Positions 37,104-46,246 of a stretch of 46,635 bases of DNA are shown one piece after another. Source of the DNA: Bacteroidaceae bacterium (lineage in GTDB: Bacteria > Bacteroidota > Bacteroidia > Bacteroidales > Bacteroidaceae); the NCBI GenBank assembly GCA_017615245.1, contig JAGAAL010000033.1, positions 1 through 46,635 on the forward strand, in the 5' to 3' direction. The position numbers and the translations under genes were made by a program. Numbering within the stretch: the first letter of the stretch is position 1; every line of letters begins with the position of its first letter. The notes beneath the pieces are model-generated. The model did no database searches and was not told the DNA's origin. It saw nothing but the letters and a program-made list of their open reading frames with translations.

Positions 37104-38438
37104 TTACTTCACGTAAACCTTTTCACCGTTTACGATGTTGAGACCCTTCTGGAGGCTCTTAATCTGCTGACCAGCTACGTTGTAGATAGTCTTAACAGCC
37201 TTCTCAGCCTTGAATGAGTTGATAGCTGTTGGAACATCGTCCTCATCCACATAAACCATGATGTCATCGAAATAGTAGTTGTTTACTTCTTTCAAAACAT
37301 CGAGGTTGAAGCAAATTGCCTGCATACCAGCTGCATTATCAGGAACTGTAACAGTCCACTCTTTGGTCTGAGGTTCTGTAGTGAATGCCACATCACCTGC
37401 AAGTGAGTACCATAGATATGTTCCAGCACCGCTGTGATTTGCACCCTCAATAAATCCAGGAGCAGGAGCAGCTGAGTGAGCCTGAGTTTGAGTATTAGCA
37501 TCTTTGTCTGCCCAATACTTCATCGAGAATTTAAATTTCTGACCTGCATTCAGAGGCATTGGAAGAGAAATCAAGAACTGAGTATCCCAGTCACGACCAA
37601 GAACTGCAGGCTGCTCTTCTGTGTCAGCATCATTAGAATAATAGTATGTACCAGTATAATCCTTTTCTGGATCAAGACTTGTTACTACGATAGCACCATC
37701 TACACTCTTTGCTTCATCTGTGTAATTTCTAAAGTACTTAACAGAAACAGTAGAAAGGTCTGTACCATCGTTCTCATAAATGTTCACCCACACATTCTCC
37801 TTTGGTTTTATCATGGTGATAGAAATATCATCAAAATAATACTTATTAGCCTCCTTAAACTCTGCAAGATTGAAAGCGATAGATTGGAATTGACCACCAT
37901 TACCCTGTGCTTGGGCGGCAGTAAGAGTTCCTGATTGTTCGAAATCTTGCCATTCTTCAGTGAAGCTAATATTACCGAGGATTCCATGATCGTTATACCT
38001 ACTTGGCAATGCATGAGCTTGAGTTGATGCACTAGCTGGCTTTTCTGCTCTATACTTAAACTTCACAGTGTATTGGGTTCCAGCATCCCATGGTTCTGGA
38101 ACTTGAATAAAGAATTGAGTATCCCAGGCGTCAATATTTGTAACTTCACCTGTTTCTTCATCAACTGGAGCATCACGTGAAATGACTTCAATACAACGGT
38201 TAGCAGTACGAGGTGCTTCTGATTCGTCTGCATAACCCAGTGTTGGGTCTACTACAACTCTTGACTGAACTACAGCAACTTGCTCACCATTGAGCCATTC
38301 TGTTGACTTGAAAGGAGCCATTTCTTCTTCGTTGCTATTAGAATTTCTGGTAAATGTTCCTTTAACAACCTCTACCTCCTGTGCAAATGCACTACCTGCT
38401 ACGAGCGCAACTGCGATTAAAGTAAAAAATTTCTTCAT
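37104..38438 (-). CDS. secreted two-domain protein with Prevotella-type C-terminal motif (paralogue 1)
   Basis: 444 residues. Signal peptide MKKFFTLIAVALVAGSAFAQ. Two beta-rich domains of about 180 residues each follow; each has a WDTQF(F/L)I segment, a Q-A-H segment (TQAHALP, TQTQAHSAAP) and ends FNL..NxYYFDDIxI, like a jelly-roll carbohydrate-binding module. The C-terminus is YNVAGQQIKSLQKG followed by LNIVNGEKVYVK. I cannot name the family. A paralogue with the same layout lies next to it (38889-40181). Confidence 0.75.
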   Translation of the reverse strand: MKKFFTLIAVALVAGSAFAQEVEVVKGTFTRNSNSNEEEMAPFKSTEWLNGEQVAVVQSRVVVDPTLGYADESEAPRTANRCIEVISRDAPVDEETGEVTNIDAWDTQFFIQVPEPWDAGTQYTVKFKYRAEKPASASTQAHALPSRYNDHGILGNISFTEEWQDFEQSGTLTAAQAQGNGGQFQSIAFNLAEFKEANKYYFDDISITMIKPKENVWVNIYENDGTDLSTVSVKYFRNYTDEAKSVDGAIVVTSLDPEKDYTGTYYYSNDADTEEQPAVLGRDWDTQFLISLPMPLNAGQKFKFSMKYWADKDANTQTQAHSAAPAPGFIEGANHSGAGTYLWYSLAGDVAFTTEPQTKEWTVTVPDNAAGMQAICFNLDVLKEVNNYYFDDIMVYVDEDDVPTAINSFKAEKAVKTIYNVAGQQIKSLQKGLNIVNGEKVYVK

Positions 38439-38888: not shown

Positions 38889-40181
38889 TTACTTTACATA
38901 AACCTTTTTGCCGTCAACGATGTTGAGACCCTTCTGGAGGTTCTGAACCTTCTGACCAGAGATATTGAAGATAGCATTAGCTGTCTTAGCTGCCTTTGCA
39001 GTATTGATAGCAGTTGGAACTTCTATGATATCCTCTTCTTCCAACCATACCTTGATGTCTTTGAAGTAGAATGTATTAGCAATAAATGCGCCATCCTTCT
39101 TTGGATTAAGGTTGAAGCACAAAGAACCAACAGGATTCTCTTCTGATCCGGCATTAATTGTAACCAAATTCTCGTACTCCTTCCATTCTGTATCGAAATC
39201 GAAGTTACCAATGAACTGATAGTTGATATATGTTCCTGCATAAGGTTCCTGACCGTTGTAACCATTTACGCTTTCTACTGCGCCTGCTGCAGGAGCTACT
39301 GCATGAGCCTGAGTACCTACAGTAACAGGAACATCTGCCTTATACTTGAATGTAAGCTTCAACTTCTTACATTGAGCAAGGCCCTGTGTGAAAGGAATCA
39401 AGAACTGAGTATCCCACTCATTAGCAAGAACGACATCGATAGAATTACCATCGCCGTCTTCCATATAATACCATTGAGCATAATCAACCCCAGGTTCAAG
39501 AGCCTTCACAGCGATTGCTTCGTCAACAATCTCAAAGTCTTCTGTGTAGTTCTTGAAGAACTTAACAGACAATCCTTCTTTGCTTGTACCGTCGTTTGAG
39601 TAAACTTCCTTCCAATTTGGAGTCATTACCCAAAGTTCGATATCATCGAAGTAGAAATAATTAACGCCAGAGAGGTTGAAGGCAATAGTACGCATGCCTG
39701 CAGGTGCTACCAAATATGTTCTTTGATTCCACCAGTTACCTTCTGTAACATAGCCAGGTGCTGTAAATACTGATGATGTGAAAGTGGTCCATTCATCTGT
39801 AATGTTGATGTTGCCTAAAGCCCTTTCTCCACCTTCTGCCTGGAAGCTAACAGTTGCAGGATATTCTGCCTTTACTTTCAACTTAAGCTGGAACTGAGCT
39901 CCAAGTCCAAGTGCTTCATCTTCTGGAAGAGTGATAAAGAACTTAGCATCGTCGCCACCATTTGAACCAACGACGATATAACGCTCAGCGCCATCAACCA
40001 TGATACGTGCGTGAATATTTTCATGCTTTGTACCATCATCCCAATAATCAATAGCCTCGAAGTTTGTCATGTCAGTTCCGCTGAGGTCACCATTATTGAT
40101 AACATTTACGAAACCTTCTTCCTGAGCGAATGCACTACCTGCTACGAGTGCAGCTGCAATGAGTGTAAAAAATTTCTTCAT
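38889..40181 (-). CDS. secreted two-domain protein with Prevotella-type C-terminal motif (paralogue 2)
   Basis: 430 residues. The signal peptide MKKFFTLIAAALVAGSAFAQ differs from paralogue 1 by one residue. Again two beta-rich domains, each with an FNL..YFxDIxxW ending, and WDTQFLIPF with TQAHAVAPAAG in the second. The C-terminus is FNISGQKVQNLQKG then LNIVDGKKVYVK. The first domain has diverged more (FFITLPEDEALG in place of WDTQF). Probably a secreted binding protein; family not recognised. It faces the TonB receptor operon across a 342-bp divergent promoter region. Confidence 0.75.
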   Translation of the reverse strand: MKKFFTLIAAALVAGSAFAQEEGFVNVINNGDLSGTDMTNFEAIDYWDDGTKHENIHARIMVDGAERYIVVGSNGGDDAKFFITLPEDEALGLGAQFQLKLKVKAEYPATVSFQAEGGERALGNINITDEWTTFTSSVFTAPGYVTEGNWWNQRTYLVAPAGMRTIAFNLSGVNYFYFDDIELWVMTPNWKEVYSNDGTSKEGLSVKFFKNYTEDFEIVDEAIAVKALEPGVDYAQWYYMEDGDGNSIDVVLANEWDTQFLIPFTQGLAQCKKLKLTFKYKADVPVTVGTQAHAVAPAAGAVESVNGYNGQEPYAGTYINYQFIGNFDFDTEWKEYENLVTINAGSEENPVGSLCFNLNPKKDGAFIANTFYFKDIKVWLEEEDIIEVPTAINTAKAAKTANAIFNISGQKVQNLQKGLNIVDGKKVYVK

Positions 40182-40393: not shown

Positions 40394-40426
40394 TTTGGTA
40401 GTTTGATAAAAAAACTTTATCTTTGC
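40394..40426 (+). promoter_or_regulatory. promoter of the TonB receptor - OB-fold - nuclease operon
   Basis: TTTG (40394-40397), 20 bp, TATCTTTGC (40418-40426), a full consensus match. The leader is about 90 nt. Confidence 0.78.
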
Positions 40427-40523: not shown

Positions 40524-43500
40524 ATGTTGAAGAAATTGTGTTCGATCATTGCCCTGCTGACACTTGTGGTTTCAGCAGCAATGGCACAGGTAACCACGTC
40601 AGGCATGTCTGGTAAGGTTACAAGCAACAATGAGGAAGTCATTGGTGCACACATTCAGGCAGTACATACACCCTCTGGGACAAAGTATGTAGCTGTCACC
40701 AACGTAAACGGCCGTTACAGCATCCAAGGTATGCGTCCAGGCGGTCCTTACGAAGTAACTGTATCTTATGTAGGTTACGACACAAAAACGGTGCGTAACA
40801 TCACCCTGCAACTGGGTGAAACCTACAGTCTCAATGTCAACATGTCGGAAACGGCTACGGAGCTAAGCAATGTAGTTGTCGAAGGTATTGCTTCGAAGTT
40901 CTCGAACGAGAAGATGGGTAGTGTGACCAACATCTCGAACGAGGAAATGATGAACATGCCGAACGTCAGCCGTAGCATTACCGACATTACTCGCCTGTCG
41001 CCATACGGCGGTAACGGTATGAAGTTTGCTGGTCAGGACGGACGTACCGCCAATTTCACTGTCGATGGTGCCAACTTCAACAACAATTTCGGATTGAGCG
41101 ACCTGCTTCCTGGTGGTGGCAGCCCTATCTCAATCGATGCTATCGAGGAGATACAGGTGGTTGTTTCTCCATACGACGTACGCCAAACGAACTTCATCGG
41201 AGGTGGTGTGAACGCCATTACAAAGTCGGGAACAAACCAATACAAGGGTACTGCCTACATCTTCCATCACAACGAGAACATGCGTGGTAGCAACGTAGCA
41301 GGAACAGACATCCCAACGGCTCGTGAAACTGACCGCACCACAACCTACGGTATGACATTAGGCGGACCTATCATCAAGAATAAGTTGTTCTTCTTTGTCA
41401 ATGCTGAATATGTGAAGACTCCTACCACAGTTATCAAGTGGAGGGCTTCAGATGCTGACAACCCACCAAGTGCCGACATGCAGCGCTCTTATGCCACAGC
41501 TGCCGACATGCAGCGTGTAAGTGACTTTGTGCGTGAAACCTATGGCTACGAGACAGGCTCATTTACCAACTTCCCTGCCGACGAGACCAACACAAAGATT
41601 CTGGCCCGCATCGACTGGAACATCACAGATAAGCATAAGTTGGCTTTCCGTTACAACTTCACCCATAACCTGGCTTGGAAAGAACCTAATGGCTCTTCAA
41701 TGGACGGAGGCACACGCTCACCATTCAACCGTGTATCGCTCTACTCTATGTCGTTTGCCAACTCTATGTATTCGGCAAAGAACGATGTACACTCATTCTC
41801 GTTCGACCTGAACAGTCGCCTGAGCGACAATCTGTTCAACCAGTTCCTCACGGCCTTCTCGAAACAGACCGACCCAATTCGTGATTCCAAGTCAGCTGAG
41901 TTCCCATTCATCGATATTCAAGACGGAACAGGCACCAACACGCAATATATGGCACTCGGTTACGAGTTGTTCACTTGGAACAACGCTGTAAACAATACGG
42001 TGTTCAACATGAAGGACGATATCACCTACTACTTGAACAACCACAAGATTATGGGTGGTATCAGCTACGAATATCAAATGGCTGACAACCAGTATATGCG
42101 TAGCGGTACAGGTTATTATCGTTATTCCAGTGTAGAAGACTTTATCAACGGAGCCACTCCTGATGTAGTATGTCTCACCTACGGCTACGACGGCAATCAA
42201 AAGCCTGCATCTCGCGTGAAATACAATAAATTAGGTGTATATGCACAGGACGAATGGAACGTGAACGACAAACTGAAACTGACCTATGGACTTCGTCTCG
42301 ATGGTCTGTTCTTCAACAACAGCGATGTGATTACCAACAAAGCCATCCTTAACCTCGACTATGACGGACGCCATATCGACACAGGTAAGTGGCCTTCTGC
42401 CAACATTATCTTCTCGCCACGTTTCGGCTTCAGCTACGATGTATTTGGCGACAAGACCTTGAAGATACGTGGAGGCTCTGGTTGGTTCTCTGGCCGTCTG
42501 CCACTCGTATTCTTCACCAACATGCCACAAGGATCGGGTATGATTCAGAACCAAGTGTCCATCAACGCCAGCTCTGCTGCCAAGATGGGCTTCGGCATGG
42601 ACGAGTTCAATGGAGGTCTGGTAACTGACGCCAACGGAAAGGCAACCATCGATGCCCTCTACCAGAAACTGATCGGATTAGGCTATCCTACCACTCCAGG
42701 CGATGGCACCGTACCTTCTTCCATCTCTGCCGTTGATTCCAAGTTCAAGATGCCACAGGTATGGAAAACATCTTTGGCTATCGACTACGTGATTCCTGCT
42801 TCATTCCCATTAACAGTATCAGTAGAAGGAATGTTCAACAAGAACATCAACCAGACGACCATTTCCGACTGGAGCACCATGCCAGTAGAAGGCTTTGCTC
42901 GCTGGAACGGTGCAGACGACCGTCCAATCTATCCATCGAACTTCCGTACAGGCCCTAAGGCATTTGTACTGGAAAACACCAGCAAAGGTTATTCATGGTC
43001 GGCAGCTGTTACCCTCACAGCCAAACCAACAAAGTGGCTGAACATCACTGCGTCATACACTCATATGGCTAATAAGGAAATCACCAGCTTGCCTGGAAGC
43101 AATGCAGAGTCAGCATTCACATACATTCCAACCGTCAACGGACCTAACAACATCAAGTTGCACAATGCCTACAACGTAACTCCTGACCGCATCATCGCAG
43201 CTGCAACAGCTCAGGATCCACTTGGCAACCACTACAGCCTGATTTATGAAAGCTGGCGCGGAGGTTACAACTACTCATACATGTTGGCCAACGATATGAA
43301 CGGCGACGGATACACCTACGATGCCCTCTACATTCCAACTGACCAGCAGGTGGCAAACGGTGATTTCCGCTTTGCATCGGCTGACGACCAGCAGCGTTTC
43401 ATGGATTATGTACATGCTAACGACTATCTGAAGAAGCATCAGGGTGAATATGCAGAGGCATACAGCCACTACTCTCCTTGGGTACACCGCATTGATATCA

Positions 43501-43793
43501 GCTACAAGCACGACTTCAAGGTTAGGATTGCTCAGAACGTTCACAAACTGCAACTCAGTTTCGACGTGAAGAACGTACTCAACTTCTTCAACAATGAATG
43601 GGGTGTGAGCAAAGTCATGAACCCCGACCTCAACAGCGGACGTATCCTGAAGTACGAGAAGACCGATGCTGACGGCTATCCTGTATTCTCTACACCTAAG
43701 GCAGTAAACGGCGACGTCAAGACCTTCGTACCAAACAAGGTGATTGGTCAGTGCTGGTATGCAGCTATTGGTGTTAAGTATATGTTTAATTAA
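40524..43793 (+). CDS. Oar-like TonB-dependent outer-membrane receptor
   Basis: 1089 residues. Signal peptide (ending AAMAQ), a CarboxypepD_reg domain at about 25-110 (MSGKVTSNNEEVIGAHIQAV), a plug at about 125-240 (VVVEGIASKFSN.., FTVDGANFNNNFG, IDAIEEIQVVVSPYDVRQ, GGGVNAITKSGTNQYKG) and a 22-strand-type barrel ending WYAAIGVKYMFN. It belongs to the Oar-like receptors that work without a SusD partner. It would import a ligand using TonB energy. It is the first gene of an operon with an OB-fold lipoprotein (18 bp gap) and an S1/P1 nuclease, which suggests nucleic-acid fragments as the ligand; this is inference. Confidence 0.92.
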   Translation: MLKKLCSIIALLTLVVSAAMAQVTTSGMSGKVTSNNEEVIGAHIQAVHTPSGTKYVAVTNVNGRYSIQGMRPGGPYEVTVSYVGYDTKTVRNITLQLGETYSLNVNMSETATELSNVVVEGIASKFSNEKMGSVTNISNEEMMNMPNVSRSITDITRLSPYGGNGMKFAGQDGRTANFTVDGANFNNNFGLSDLLPGGGSPISIDAIEEIQVVVSPYDVRQTNFIGGGVNAITKSGTNQYKGTAYIFHHNENMRGSNVAGTDIPTARETDRTTTYGMTLGGPIIKNKLFFFVNAEYVKTPTTVIKWRASDADNPPSADMQRSYATAADMQRVSDFVRETYGYETGSFTNFPADETNTKILARIDWNITDKHKLAFRYNFTHNLAWKEPNGSSMDGGTRSPFNRVSLYSMSFANSMYSAKNDVHSFSFDLNSRLSDNLFNQFLTAFSKQTDPIRDSKSAEFPFIDIQDGTGTNTQYMALGYELFTWNNAVNNTVFNMKDDITYYLNNHKIMGGISYEYQMADNQYMRSGTGYYRYSSVEDFINGATPDVVCLTYGYDGNQKPASRVKYNKLGVYAQDEWNVNDKLKLTYGLRLDGLFFNNSDVITNKAILNLDYDGRHIDTGKWPSANIIFSPRFGFSYDVFGDKTLKIRGGSGWFSGRLPLVFFTNMPQGSGMIQNQVSINASSAAKMGFGMDEFNGGLVTDANGKATIDALYQKLIGLGYPTTPGDGTVPSSISAVDSKFKMPQVWKTSLAIDYVIPASFPLTVSVEGMFNKNINQTTISDWSTMPVEGFARWNGADDRPIYPSNFRTGPKAFVLENTSKGYSWSAAVTLTAKPTKWLNITASYTHMANKEITSLPGSNAESAFTYIPTVNGPNNIKLHNAYNVTPDRIIAAATAQDPLGNHYSLIYESWRGGYNYSYMLANDMNGDGYTYDALYIPTDQQVANGDFRFASADDQQRFMDYVHANDYLKKHQGEYAEAYSHYSPWVHRIDISYKHDFKVRIAQNVHKLQLSFDVKNVLNFFNNEWGVSKVMNPDLNSGRILKYEKTDADGYPVFSTPKAVNGDVKTFVPNKVIGQCWYAAIGVKYMFN

Positions 43794-43811
43794 TAAAGAT
43801 TTGAAGTCATT

Positions 43812-45467
43812 ATGAAATCCAAATATATATATATAATAGGTGTCGTCCTTGCAGCTCTCGCTTTCGCTGCTTGTTCTGATGACGACGAAAAGGCAGGTTC
43901 ATTGGACAGCATTGCACTCGACAAGACCTACCTCACTATCCCAATGACTGGCGGCGATGTGAATCTCACTATCAAGGCTAGAACAGAATGGGCATTCGAC
44001 AAAGTCGTGAAAGTGGGCACGCACAAGGATGATGCCGGCAAGACTATCACAGACTACGACTGTCTGCCTACATGGCTCACCGCTTCAGCACTCTCAGGCG
44101 GTGCTGGCGAGACTACAATTACATTCCACGCTGACGCAGCAACCAGCGGTCGCGAAGTGGAACTATGCATCTTAGCAGGTAAAGACAAGCAATTCGTCAT
44201 CGTACGTCAAGGTTCGCTCGATGCATCATCTGCCACCTGTGCAGAAGTGCTCGCAGGTTCTGACGGCAAGACCTATCGTGTGAAGGGAACTTGTACCGCT
44301 ATTGCCAACACCACATACGGCAACTGGTACCTCAACGATGGTACAGGCGAAGTCTATATCTACGGAACCCTCGATGCAAAGGGTGCAGAGAAGAACTTCA
44401 CCAGCCTCGGCATCGAACTGGGTGACGAAATCACCGTTGAAGGTCCAAGAAGCACCTATAACGGCACCGTGGAACTTGTGAATGTTACCGTACTCAAGAT
44501 TACCAAGTCGCTCATCAAAGTAGTGACAGAGAATCCTACTCTGGGTAAGGAAGGCGGTGAATTTGTTGTCAAGGCTGCCTACAAGGGCAATGGAACCATG
44601 GTAACCATCCCTGAGGAATACGACTGGATCAACATGGTGAAGATGGAGTATGTAGCAGGTGTGCCAACGAAGATCGAGGCTAATCCATGCGACACAGCAG
44701 TTATCACCTTCAAGGTGGATGCCAACACGGCTGGCGCACGTACTGGTATGGTTACTATCAGTTCTGCAAGCGGTAAGAACAATTCATCTGTCAACGTAAC
44801 CGTCAGTCAGGAAGGTTCAATCCAGGAAATATCTTGTGCGGACTTCAATGCATTGGAAGACGGCACGCCACTTTATAAGGTGACAGGTATCATCACGAAG
44901 GTTGCAAATACCACATATGGCAACATCTATATCAGAGACGCTTCTGGCGAAATGTACGTTTACGGAACATTGACGGCTGATGGTGAAGCCCAGAAATTCA
45001 CAGAAATGGGTCTCAAAGTGGGTGATGTCGTAACACTTGTTGGTCCTAAGTCTTCTTACAAAGGAAGTCCTCAGATGGTTAATGGTGTTTACCAATCACA
45101 CATCGCTGTTAAGCTCTCCCCATCGGGGGAGCAGATGAGCCTTAAGGACTTCATGGCACAAGAGGACAATACCAATACCTACTACCTCATCAGCGGAAAG
45201 GTTTGTGAGCCAACTGACGACGAGAAAGCCAACAACATGAAGTGGGACATCACCACTTACGGCAACTTCGTACTTGAAGACGAAGAAGGCACACGTCTCT
45301 ATATCTATGGTGTGTACATCGGCTGGGGAACAACGGACAAGAAGCAGTTTGGAACCCTCGGCATTGAGGAAGGCGACAACATTACGATGATTGCCTACAA
45401 GACCTCATACAAGGGCCTCATCGAAGGTGTTGGATACTACATGTATCACAGTTCTCCTGAAGAATAG
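43812..45467 (+). CDS. surface lipoprotein with BACON and OB-fold (YhcR-like) domains
   Basis: 551 residues. The lipobox FAAC places the lipid on Cys21. Domain order by eye: BACON-like beta domain (about 30-135), OB-fold (about 140-232; TYRVKGTCTAIANTTYGNWY, TGEVYIYGTL, GDEITVEGPRSTYNG), second BACON-like domain (about 235-335, ending NVTVSQEGS), second OB-fold (about 340-433; same motif VTGIITKVANTTYGNIYI) and third OB-fold (about 445-545). OB-folds of this type occur in extracellular nucleases such as Bacillus YhcR and probably bind nucleic acid. No catalytic domain is visible. It sits 5 bp before the nuclease gene. Confidence 0.85.
   Translation: MKSKYIYIIGVVLAALAFAACSDDDEKAGSLDSIALDKTYLTIPMTGGDVNLTIKARTEWAFDKVVKVGTHKDDAGKTITDYDCLPTWLTASALSGGAGETTITFHADAATSGREVELCILAGKDKQFVIVRQGSLDASSATCAEVLAGSDGKTYRVKGTCTAIANTTYGNWYLNDGTGEVYIYGTLDAKGAEKNFTSLGIELGDEITVEGPRSTYNGTVELVNVTVLKITKSLIKVVTENPTLGKEGGEFVVKAAYKGNGTMVTIPEEYDWINMVKMEYVAGVPTKIEANPCDTAVITFKVDANTAGARTGMVTISSASGKNNSSVNVTVSQEGSIQEISCADFNALEDGTPLYKVTGIITKVANTTYGNIYIRDASGEMYVYGTLTADGEAQKFTEMGLKVGDVVTLVGPKSSYKGSPQMVNGVYQSHIAVKLSPSGEQMSLKDFMAQEDNTNTYYLISGKVCEPTDDEKANNMKWDITTYGNFVLEDEEGTRLYIYGVYIGWGTTDKKQFGTLGIEEGDNITMIAYKTSYKGLIEGVGYYMYHSSPEE
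45115..45132. repeat. small REP-like palindrome inside the OB-fold lipoprotein gene
   Basis: CTCTCCCCATCGGGGGAG, stem CTCCCC/GGGGAG. It encodes LSPSGE in the linker between OB-folds 2 and 3. Confidence 0.5.
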
Positions 45468-45472
45468 AAGAC

Positions 45473-46246
45473 ATGAAGAAAGCCATACTAATATCTTTGG
45501 TTGCGATGTCACTCATCGCAACCGAAGGTTTGGCATGGGGACAGAAAGGACATGACGTCACCTGCGCTATCGCAGAGAAACATCTGACCAAACGTGCTAA
45601 ACGACATATCAAGAAGGTACTGGATGGCAAAAGCATTGTGTATTGGGGTAATTGGCTTGACAACGCAAGCCACACTCCCCAATATGAGTACACCAAGAGT
45701 TGGCACTACAAGAACATCAATGCCGACCAGACCTATGACGAAGTCCCCCCTTTCAAGGATGGTGATGTCGTTGTGGCCATCAACGAACAAATCAGTAAAT
45801 TGAAGTCGGGAGAACTGTCACACGAAGAGGAAGCTTTGGCATTGAAAATGCTTATCCATTTCTTGGGTGACATCCATCAGCCGATGCATTTAGGGCATCA
45901 GACCGACTTGGGTGGCAATCGGGTAAATGTGCTCTTCTTCAAAGAAGAGACCAACCTACACACCGTATGGGATACAGACCTTGTAGAGAGTGCTCATAAA
46001 TGGGGATATCCAGAATGGGTGGATCAAATTGACCGTCTCAACCGCAAAGAAAGAAAGGCGATTGAACAAGGCACTGCCGATGACTGGGCACGCGAAACTT
46101 ATCGCTATGCACAAGCGGTGTATGAAAACACTCCTGAAGGCACAAAAATCTCGTATGACTACGTAGCTAAATATACTCCGTTAGTAGAGCAGCAATTACT
46201 CAAAGGAGGTATCCGACTGGCTCGTATCCTTAACGAAATATACTGA
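45473..46246 (+). CDS. secreted S1/P1-family nuclease
   Basis: 257 residues. The signal peptide MKKAILISLVAMSLIATEG ends before LA|WGQKGHD, so the mature protein begins with Trp22, the N-terminal zinc ligand of the family. The other zinc ligands are visible: H27 of WGQKGH, WHY, HFLGDIHQPMH and NLHTVWDTDL. It cleaves single-stranded DNA and RNA and may also act as a 3'-nucleotidase. Complete in length. Third gene of the receptor operon. Confidence 0.92.
   Translation: MKKAILISLVAMSLIATEGLAWGQKGHDVTCAIAEKHLTKRAKRHIKKVLDGKSIVYWGNWLDNASHTPQYEYTKSWHYKNINADQTYDEVPPFKDGDVVVAINEQISKLKSGELSHEEEALALKMLIHFLGDIHQPMHLGHQTDLGGNRVNVLFFKEETNLHTVWDTDLVESAHKWGYPEWVDQIDRLNRKERKAIEQGTADDWARETYRYAQAVYENTPEGTKISYDYVAKYTPLVEQQLLKGGIRLARILNEIY

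Follow-up and report, generated by a model that had tools for sequence, protein, structure and literature searches.

Sus-like SusC-SusD systems, vitamin B12 transporters of the BtuB-BtuG kind and a pair of DNA-uptake genes from Riemerella are the described systems with which we compare a trio of receptor, lipoprotein and nuclease genes at positions 40524 to 46246 of a 46,635-nucleotide stretch of DNA from a Bacteroidaceae bacterium (contig JAGAAL010000033.1), hereafter the window. The SusC-SusD systems share with the trio the adjacent genes of a TonB-dependent receptor (TBDR) and a surface lipoprotein, with a degrading enzyme after them in some lineages; in contrast to them, the window locus has no SusD-like lipoprotein next to its TBDR, and combines a BACON/OB lipoprotein and an OMP_b-brl_4 receptor with nucleases instead of glycosidases. 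BtuB-BtuG and other TBDR-lipoprotein pairs of gut Bacteroides likewise join a receptor to a non-SusD surface lipoprotein, as far as the accessible parts of the reports describe them, but their folds and ligands differ from those of the window module, and to our knowledge they have no nuclease partner. In Riemerella anatipestifer, the gene of the outer-membrane protein RA0C_RS04915, which has a CarboxypepD_reg domain as the window receptor does, adjoins that of RA0C_RS04920, a lipoprotein with DUF5689 and anchor-J regions; according to the available sections of that study, both are essential for natural transformation and are proposed to bind and import DNA, and for the passage of nucleic acid across the outer membrane, as food or for transformation, the genetics point to a receptor-lipoprotein pair in a model that is still speculative (PMC8459023). 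In Flavobacterium johnsoniae, phosphate starvation induces EndA nucleases with outer-membrane transporters for phosphorus scavenging, which again places secreted nucleases alongside such transporters; there, however, the transporters are SusCD-like complexes, the endA genes are orphans and no operon with an OB lipoprotein is seen in the accessible part of the paper (PMC8115612). Our literature search, with bioRxiv and most subscription papers outside its scope, found no description of a module made of a TBDR and an OB lipoprotein.

The first two genes of the trio are kept in related bacteria, where they stand with different nucleases or none, and the trio of the window may help its bacterium to capture and digest surrounding nucleic acids. 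The OB module is a second receptor-lipoprotein pair besides that of Riemerella, with an unrelated lipoprotein and repeatedly found beside nucleases, and its presence in named strains makes ligand and transport directly testable. The trio has the following features:

40524..43793, forward strand: TBDR, 1089 aa, with a CarboxypepD_reg N-terminal domain, a plug and an OMP_b-brl_4 barrel (Pfam)
43812..45467, forward strand: surface-type OB/BACON lipoprotein, 551 aa (Pfam, hhalign, motif)
43875..43889, forward strand: SDDDE after the lipidated Cys21, export-signal-like (motif inspection)
43881..44216, forward strand: BACON-like domain 1 (Pfam, hhalign)
44217..44525, forward strand: OB repeat 1, with the TTYGNWYLNDGTGEVYIYG core (Pfam on orthologs, hhalign)
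44526..44813, forward strand: BACON domain 2 (Pfam, hhalign)
44814..45107, forward strand: OB repeat 2 (hhalign)
45108..45464, forward strand: OB repeat 3 (hhalign)
45473..46246, forward strand: S1/P1 zinc nuclease, 257 aa, with a signal peptide and a predicted mature N-terminal Trp22 (PF02265, motifs)

The three co-directional genes of the original prediction were recovered with identical coordinates; 18 and 5 bp separate them. The receptor matches OMP_b-brl_4 (1.9e-48; 166 bits against a cut-off of 30) and CarboxypepD_reg (7.7e-19), as well as, below threshold, TonB_dep_Rec_b-barrel (26.3 bits, cut-off 27) and Plug (17.7 bits, cut-off 23.9), and has the plug and large outer-membrane barrel of a TBDR. 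We take it to be of the Oar type, Oar presumably being the transporter required for PopC secretion in Myxococcus. The nuclease matches PF02265 over profile positions 1-257 of 258 (6e-61; 207 bits against a curated cut-off of 29.5) and aligns with the solved S1/P1 nuclease 8qjl over nearly its whole mature length (1.4e-28). The mature N-terminal Trp and the zinc ligands claimed for it held up: Trp22 is the predicted first mature residue, and the motifs GH, WLD, WHY, IHFLGD, IHQPMH and NLHTVWD, aligned with solved members, are all intact, the His/Asp ligands being those that we assume for S1/P1 enzymes. In the lipoprotein, the two BACON domains and three OB folds that had been proposed were also found, the OB repeats being mutually homologous (hhalign 99.7-99.8%) and the two BACON stretches likewise (94.5%). 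BACON passes the Pfam cut-off in the window protein and occurs in 55/55 lipoproteins scanned (an alignment and scan set of 55 of 74 candidates). For the nucleic-acid-binding type assigned to the OB folds, the relatives and the window copy differ: PF01336 (OB-fold nucleic acid binding) was matched by 41 of the 55 at E <=0.01 (best 8.2e-10), whereas the window copy is unmatched and has no OB family over the cut-off in the Pfam scan. SusD had been declared absent, and indeed no SusD model matched the window lipoprotein at E <=1, nor does SusD appear in the list of 17 families found in the 55 lipoproteins. Tyr/Trp positions in the OB core are nearly invariant among the lipoproteins and would suit base or sugar stacking. 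With Cys21 and SDDDE, the protein carries the cysteine and acidic export signal of surface-exposed Bacteroidetes lipoproteins, and would accordingly be placed at the surface; at least one acidic residue is present among the four that follow the lipobox Cys in 83 of 90 lipoproteins, with the Cys picked by a simple rule and one more protein lacking a Cys. The window SDDDE resembles the SDDDD consensus proposed as a lipoprotein export signal in B. fragilis in the accessible part of that work (PMC5080379).

Searching named genomes with the BACON-OB1 part of the lipoprotein yielded 349 relatives, and the loci of the best 80 were fetched. In 79 of these 80 loci the lipoprotein gene is immediately preceded by a co-directional receptor gene (78 by script and L116 by reading, the choice of start having hidden its receptor), and the gaps in the 78 loci range from -56 to 88 bp, the starts being uncertain. 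The 80th locus (L063) starts at a contig end, and some receptors are truncated at a contig end or split into two frames. The conserved unit is therefore the TBDR-lipoprotein pair, as expected from the predicted pairing of a TonB receptor with a surface binder. Carriers of the pair include Prevotella aff. ruminicola Tc2-24, Hallella multisaccharivorax DSM 17128, Xylanibacter rodentium PROD and Prevotella sp. MA2016. In the family sample, 11 of 151 genomes have the receptor directly upstream of a lipoprotein that is matched strongly (E 1.9e-71 or better), and 7 further ones show weak, partial lipoprotein matches alone; class-wide, only the window's genome was matched at E 1e-20 in an even sample of 295 genomes that holds few family members and in which at most five candidates were scored per genome.

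The enzymes beside the pair were searched with blastp (1e-5) for five families, S1/P1, EndA (PF04231), NucA (PF01223), the DNase-I-like EEP (PF19580) and NPP (PF01663), picked because they had been seen beside the pair and named on representatives by Pfam. Relatives were found in 25 of the 80 loci, 24 of which were counted as beside the pair; an NPP in L067 was rejected as linked, being 6.6 kb away. S1/P1 stands beside the pair in L037, EndA in L064, L066, L082, L086, L087, L089 and L099, and NPP in L108, L110, L112, L114 and L116. NucA and/or EEP lie downstream in L055, L060, L068, L069, L075, L090, L094, L102 and L109, in some of them after a second OB/BACON lipoprotein, and in L053 EEP is on the opposite strand. 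In L115, NucA lies upstream of the pair within a protein that also matches DUF5689; this protein was seen in L172 (2725-5466), where it has 913 aa and directly precedes the receptor-OB lipoprotein pair. The EndA versions carry a tail that we take to be of the type IX secretion system (T9SS) sorting type, so that their site of action may be the cell surface, whereas S1/P1 is exported by a plain signal peptide.

To check this picture without choosing families, Pfam scans (E <=1e-15) were run on the downstream and upstream genes. Among the 50 first co-directional downstream genes scanned (50 of 57; six from an earlier locus set and one overlapping ORF were omitted), 19 families were matched: Endonuclease_1 (7), Endonuclease_NS (5), Phosphodiest (4), S1-P1 (1) and 15 others with one member each. 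Families matched more than once are thus of the EndA, NucA and NPP types only. Upstream, the 58 next genes on either strand (58 of 62, four open at a contig end being omitted) are led by the Obg GTPase (12) and an opposite-strand RNase_PH-type, PNPase-like exoribonuclease of a housekeeping kind (6), and among the matches listed, which cover 25 of 27 families, are one to Endonuclease_NS and two to DUF5689. With blastp, the five families were found within 5 kb downstream in 11 of 49 loci and within 5 kb upstream in one, and beside none of the 13 paralogous TBDRs of the same loci (blastp, 5 kb). On a receptor tree of 73 rows (receptors of at least 850 aa; nine of ten earlier loci omitted, four of them duplicates), several nuclease families lie in separate parts: S1/P1 (3 rows), EndA (7) and NPP (3) require one change each, and NucA/EEP (8 rows) two changes, in another deep clade.

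Two other kinds of protein were seen near these enzymes. An M3-type peptidase of ~650-675 aa is present in L068, L069, L075, L109, L168 and L171 (Pfam-confirmed in L069, L109 and L168), after the EEP nuclease, the DUF5689 gene or, in L069 and L075, a 542-aa CarboxypepD_reg gene. Downstream proteins of ~390 aa in L042, L070, L081, L092, L100, L103 and L111 were rejected as nuclease candidates; that of L042, the one scanned, is DUF4369/thioredoxin-like.

The window's genome, of 1.97 Mb and 62% complete, in which the window lies on contig C14, is that of a rumen-type Prevotella relative, judged by its named relatives. The assembly has one match for the lipoprotein, one for the nuclease and, besides the receptor's own gene, one further weak N-terminal receptor match on contig C16. 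Only 17 of 251 genomes of the family contain S1/P1; in the window's genus it is present in 10 of 17 genomes. Four of the 17 genomes of the genus (G000, G413, G021 and G410) have a strong lipoprotein match and S1/P1 adjoins the lipoprotein in all four; another five show weak and partial ones. A receptor followed by S1/P1 with no lipoprotein between them is present in G410 (second copy), G412, G415 and G145; these receptors are 58-61% and the nucleases 65-66% identical to those of the window. HU and Rng genes come after S1/P1 in the first three, as in the window's relatives, which marks them as the same locus, and the divergent proteins encoded upstream of the window receptor (described below) have counterparts in three of the four lipoprotein-less loci, the fourth being cut. 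S1/P1 without a receptor match upstream was found in G414 and G102, and only fragments in G086. Because both operon versions (L208, L214) and duplicate HU and Rng genes are present in the one assembly, G410 is probably a mixed assembly or metagenome bin.

The relationships of receptor and nuclease within the genus conflict. Compared with the window trio (40524-46246), the G021 locus (L027) has a nuclease that is 88% identical, a receptor that is ~65% identical and a lipoprotein that is 56% identical, and its nuclease is 65-67% identical to those of the lipoprotein-less versions. The 73-row tree places the L027 receptor with that of the window; a second tree, made from 31 chosen rows of the 73 and the four receptors without lipoprotein and hence with more congeners, groups it instead with the lipoprotein-less receptors (100/100). 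Because of this conflict, the surface parts and the nuclease seem to have been reshuffled, which suggests that surface genes were exchanged within the operon.

The original prediction had looked to a three-gene order conserved in Bacteroidales; S1/P1 follows the pair only in the window's genus, and a Bacteroidales-wide three-gene operon was rejected in view of the many pair loci in which none of the five families was found and of the congeners with TBDR and S1/P1 alone. A genus-level arrangement had thus been taken for the system, although its genes are real and the function proposed is sensible. The system is the TBDR-lipoprotein pair and the nuclease is a replaceable accessory.

The pair can also be compared with the Riemerella type. 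In a phylum-wide sample of 247 genomes, DUF5689 occurs in 114, and in the six of 30 DUF5689 loci that were extended (L147-L152) an outer-membrane protein is encoded directly upstream in all six. An EEP nuclease (PF19580 confirmed) lies divergently beside the receptor-DUF5689 pair in four of them (L147-L150), a likeness to the OB module, and the DUF5689 protein of L149 scores above the cut-off of the NCBIfam model that bears the name of Riemerella M949_1556 (717 bits). In the window's genome, a separate row of receptor, DUF5689 and further lipoprotein genes is present on contig C56 (L153, 2157-7960). The two kinds of pair co-occur in L168 (read together with L060) and L169, where a second OB lipoprotein, NucA, EEP, a DUF5689-type receptor and a DUF5689 lipoprotein follow the OB pair co-directionally, in L169 after two intervening opposite-strand genes; L094 and L171 look like the same arrangement divided by a contig end. 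Homology of the two pairs was rejected: tblastn of the window proteins against the 30 DUF5689 loci with 1.5 kb flanks gave no match, the OB repeats have no detectable homology to DUF5689 (hhalign 0.3-13%), PF18942 is not matched by the window lipoprotein, and the receptors are similar only over about their first 180 residues (hhalign). In place of a DUF5689/anchor-J lipoprotein homologous to RA0C_RS04920 the window locus therefore has one of another kind, the comparison having been made through DUF5689 relatives rather than Riemerella sequences. By analogy, the OB module may work like the Riemerella-type pair.

With about even confidence, we propose that the module is a nucleic-acid acquisition system, probably a nutritional one. 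The lipoprotein would stand at the cell surface as partner of the TBDR, perhaps in a complex with it, as SusD or BtuG are for theirs, and would capture DNA or RNA fragments or oligonucleotides. The receptor would import these across the outer membrane with TonB energy, and S1/P1, most likely periplasmic because it is exported by a plain signal peptide, would digest single-stranded nucleic acid to nucleotides there, from which phosphate, nucleosides or both could be taken up. The best evidence for a nucleic-acid role is the replaceability of the nuclease: the repeated association with nucleases argues for the substrate originally predicted, the Sus-like logic invoked with it standing as an analogy only. 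Capture of nucleic acid is further favoured by the grouping with NucA, EEP and the receptor-DUF5689 pair in L168 and L169. Two further observations count for it, namely S1/P1 following the TBDR in the four lipoprotein-less congeners despite the rarity of the enzyme in the family, and PF01336 matches in most of the lipoproteins together with the nearly invariant OB-core Tyr/Trp. More tentatively, and less likely than not, the pair may be a dedicated TonB-driven nucleic-acid importer of Bacteroidales that stands beside the receptor-DUF5689 pair in some lineages and that gained its S1/P1, EndA, NucA, DNase-I-like and NPP enzymes in separate recruitments; if so, nutritional and transformational DNA uptake would share an outer-membrane route free of type IV pili.

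Several points weigh against a nucleic-acid role. Firstly, the lipoprotein is acidic (pI 4.73; median 4.72 over 88 orthologs), which argues against non-specific, loose electrostatic binding of nucleic acid; three DUF5689 proteins measured are likewise acidic (pI 4.36, 4.92 and 5.15). OB and BACON domains also accept many kinds of ligand. Secondly, none of the five families is present in the fetched flank of 55 of the 80 pair loci, so that the pair must manage without these enzymes or use ones encoded elsewhere; this number is an upper bound because eight loci (L062, L065, L077, L084, L092, L100, L102 and L105, of which L102 has a match) have under 2 kb to the right of the lipoprotein. Thirdly, the enzyme labels are clustered on the tree, and therefore about 4-5 events, not 24, carry the argument. 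EndA and NucA both belong to the His-Me finger superfamily, which reduces the five families to four superfamilies, and the substrate of NPP need not be a polymer. Lastly, the eight genomes of other genera with S1/P1 have no such TBDR in flanks of up to 1.5 kb.

Some of these points would fit a pair that imports another ligand, such as a vitamin, a peptide, a glycan or a metal complex, with nucleases as occasional passengers that use its promoter. We consider this unlikely, though a serious alternative: besides the 55 loci without the five families and the acidic lipoprotein, the free swapping of the kind of nuclease speaks for it, and a TBDR with a surface lipoprotein is also the design of vitamin B12 uptake and iron piracy in the accessible parts of two reports (PMC10404256, PMC13142918). 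Against it stands a downstream neighbourhood in which every family matched more than once is a nuclease or phosphodiesterase (17 matches in 50 genes, including the single S1-P1), compared with one secreted-type nuclease match in 58 upstream genes and none beside the 13 paralogous TBDRs.

A role in natural transformation, in which the pair would act like the receptor-DUF5689 pair of Riemerella and bring long DNA into the periplasm, is improbable. The linkage to such a pair in L168 and L169 agrees with it, as does the requirement for both genes of that pair in Riemerella, as reported in the available sections of the study (PMC8459023). The window's genome, however, already has its separate receptor-DUF5689 locus on C56, the OB repeats and most of the receptor are not detectably related to their counterparts, the lipoprotein occurs in some genomes of the genus only (4 of 17), and transforming DNA would presumably be degraded by a nuclease made from the same operon. 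That the receptor is instead an export or adhesion protein, aiding release of the nuclease or of neighbouring tailed proteins, is very unlikely, since for all that a TonB-dependent transporter is needed for PopC secretion in Myxococcus (work cited in PMC8383284, in the part of that source available) and two secreted-type proteins are encoded divergently upstream, receptor and lipoprotein are retained where the nuclease differs or is missing, and the tailed EndA versions seem to own a separate export route.

One further feature lies ahead of the trio:

40394..40425, forward strand: promoter-like TTTG-N20-TATCTTTG, 98 bp before the first ATG; weak

A single consensus promoter had been predicted for the trio, and a match is indeed present at this place; the loose pattern TTTG-N20-TATCTTTG, which we take to reflect the Bacteroidetes -33/-7 consensus, has 12 matches over both strands of the window, this one among them, and the match was graded weak for that reason. 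Divergently upstream of the receptor, on the reverse strand, 37104-38438 and 38889-40181 encode two paralogs of secreted type, whose signal peptides are nearly identical and whose tails are presumably of the T9SS-sorting type. A Pfam scan of both gave no domain over the cut-off, and they were rejected as DNases, as the match to T9SS_DNase_Rie scores far under its cut-off and is confined to the first 26-30 residues. Their relatives occupy the same place in congeners, in L208, L209 and L211 by blastp and in L027 by eye.

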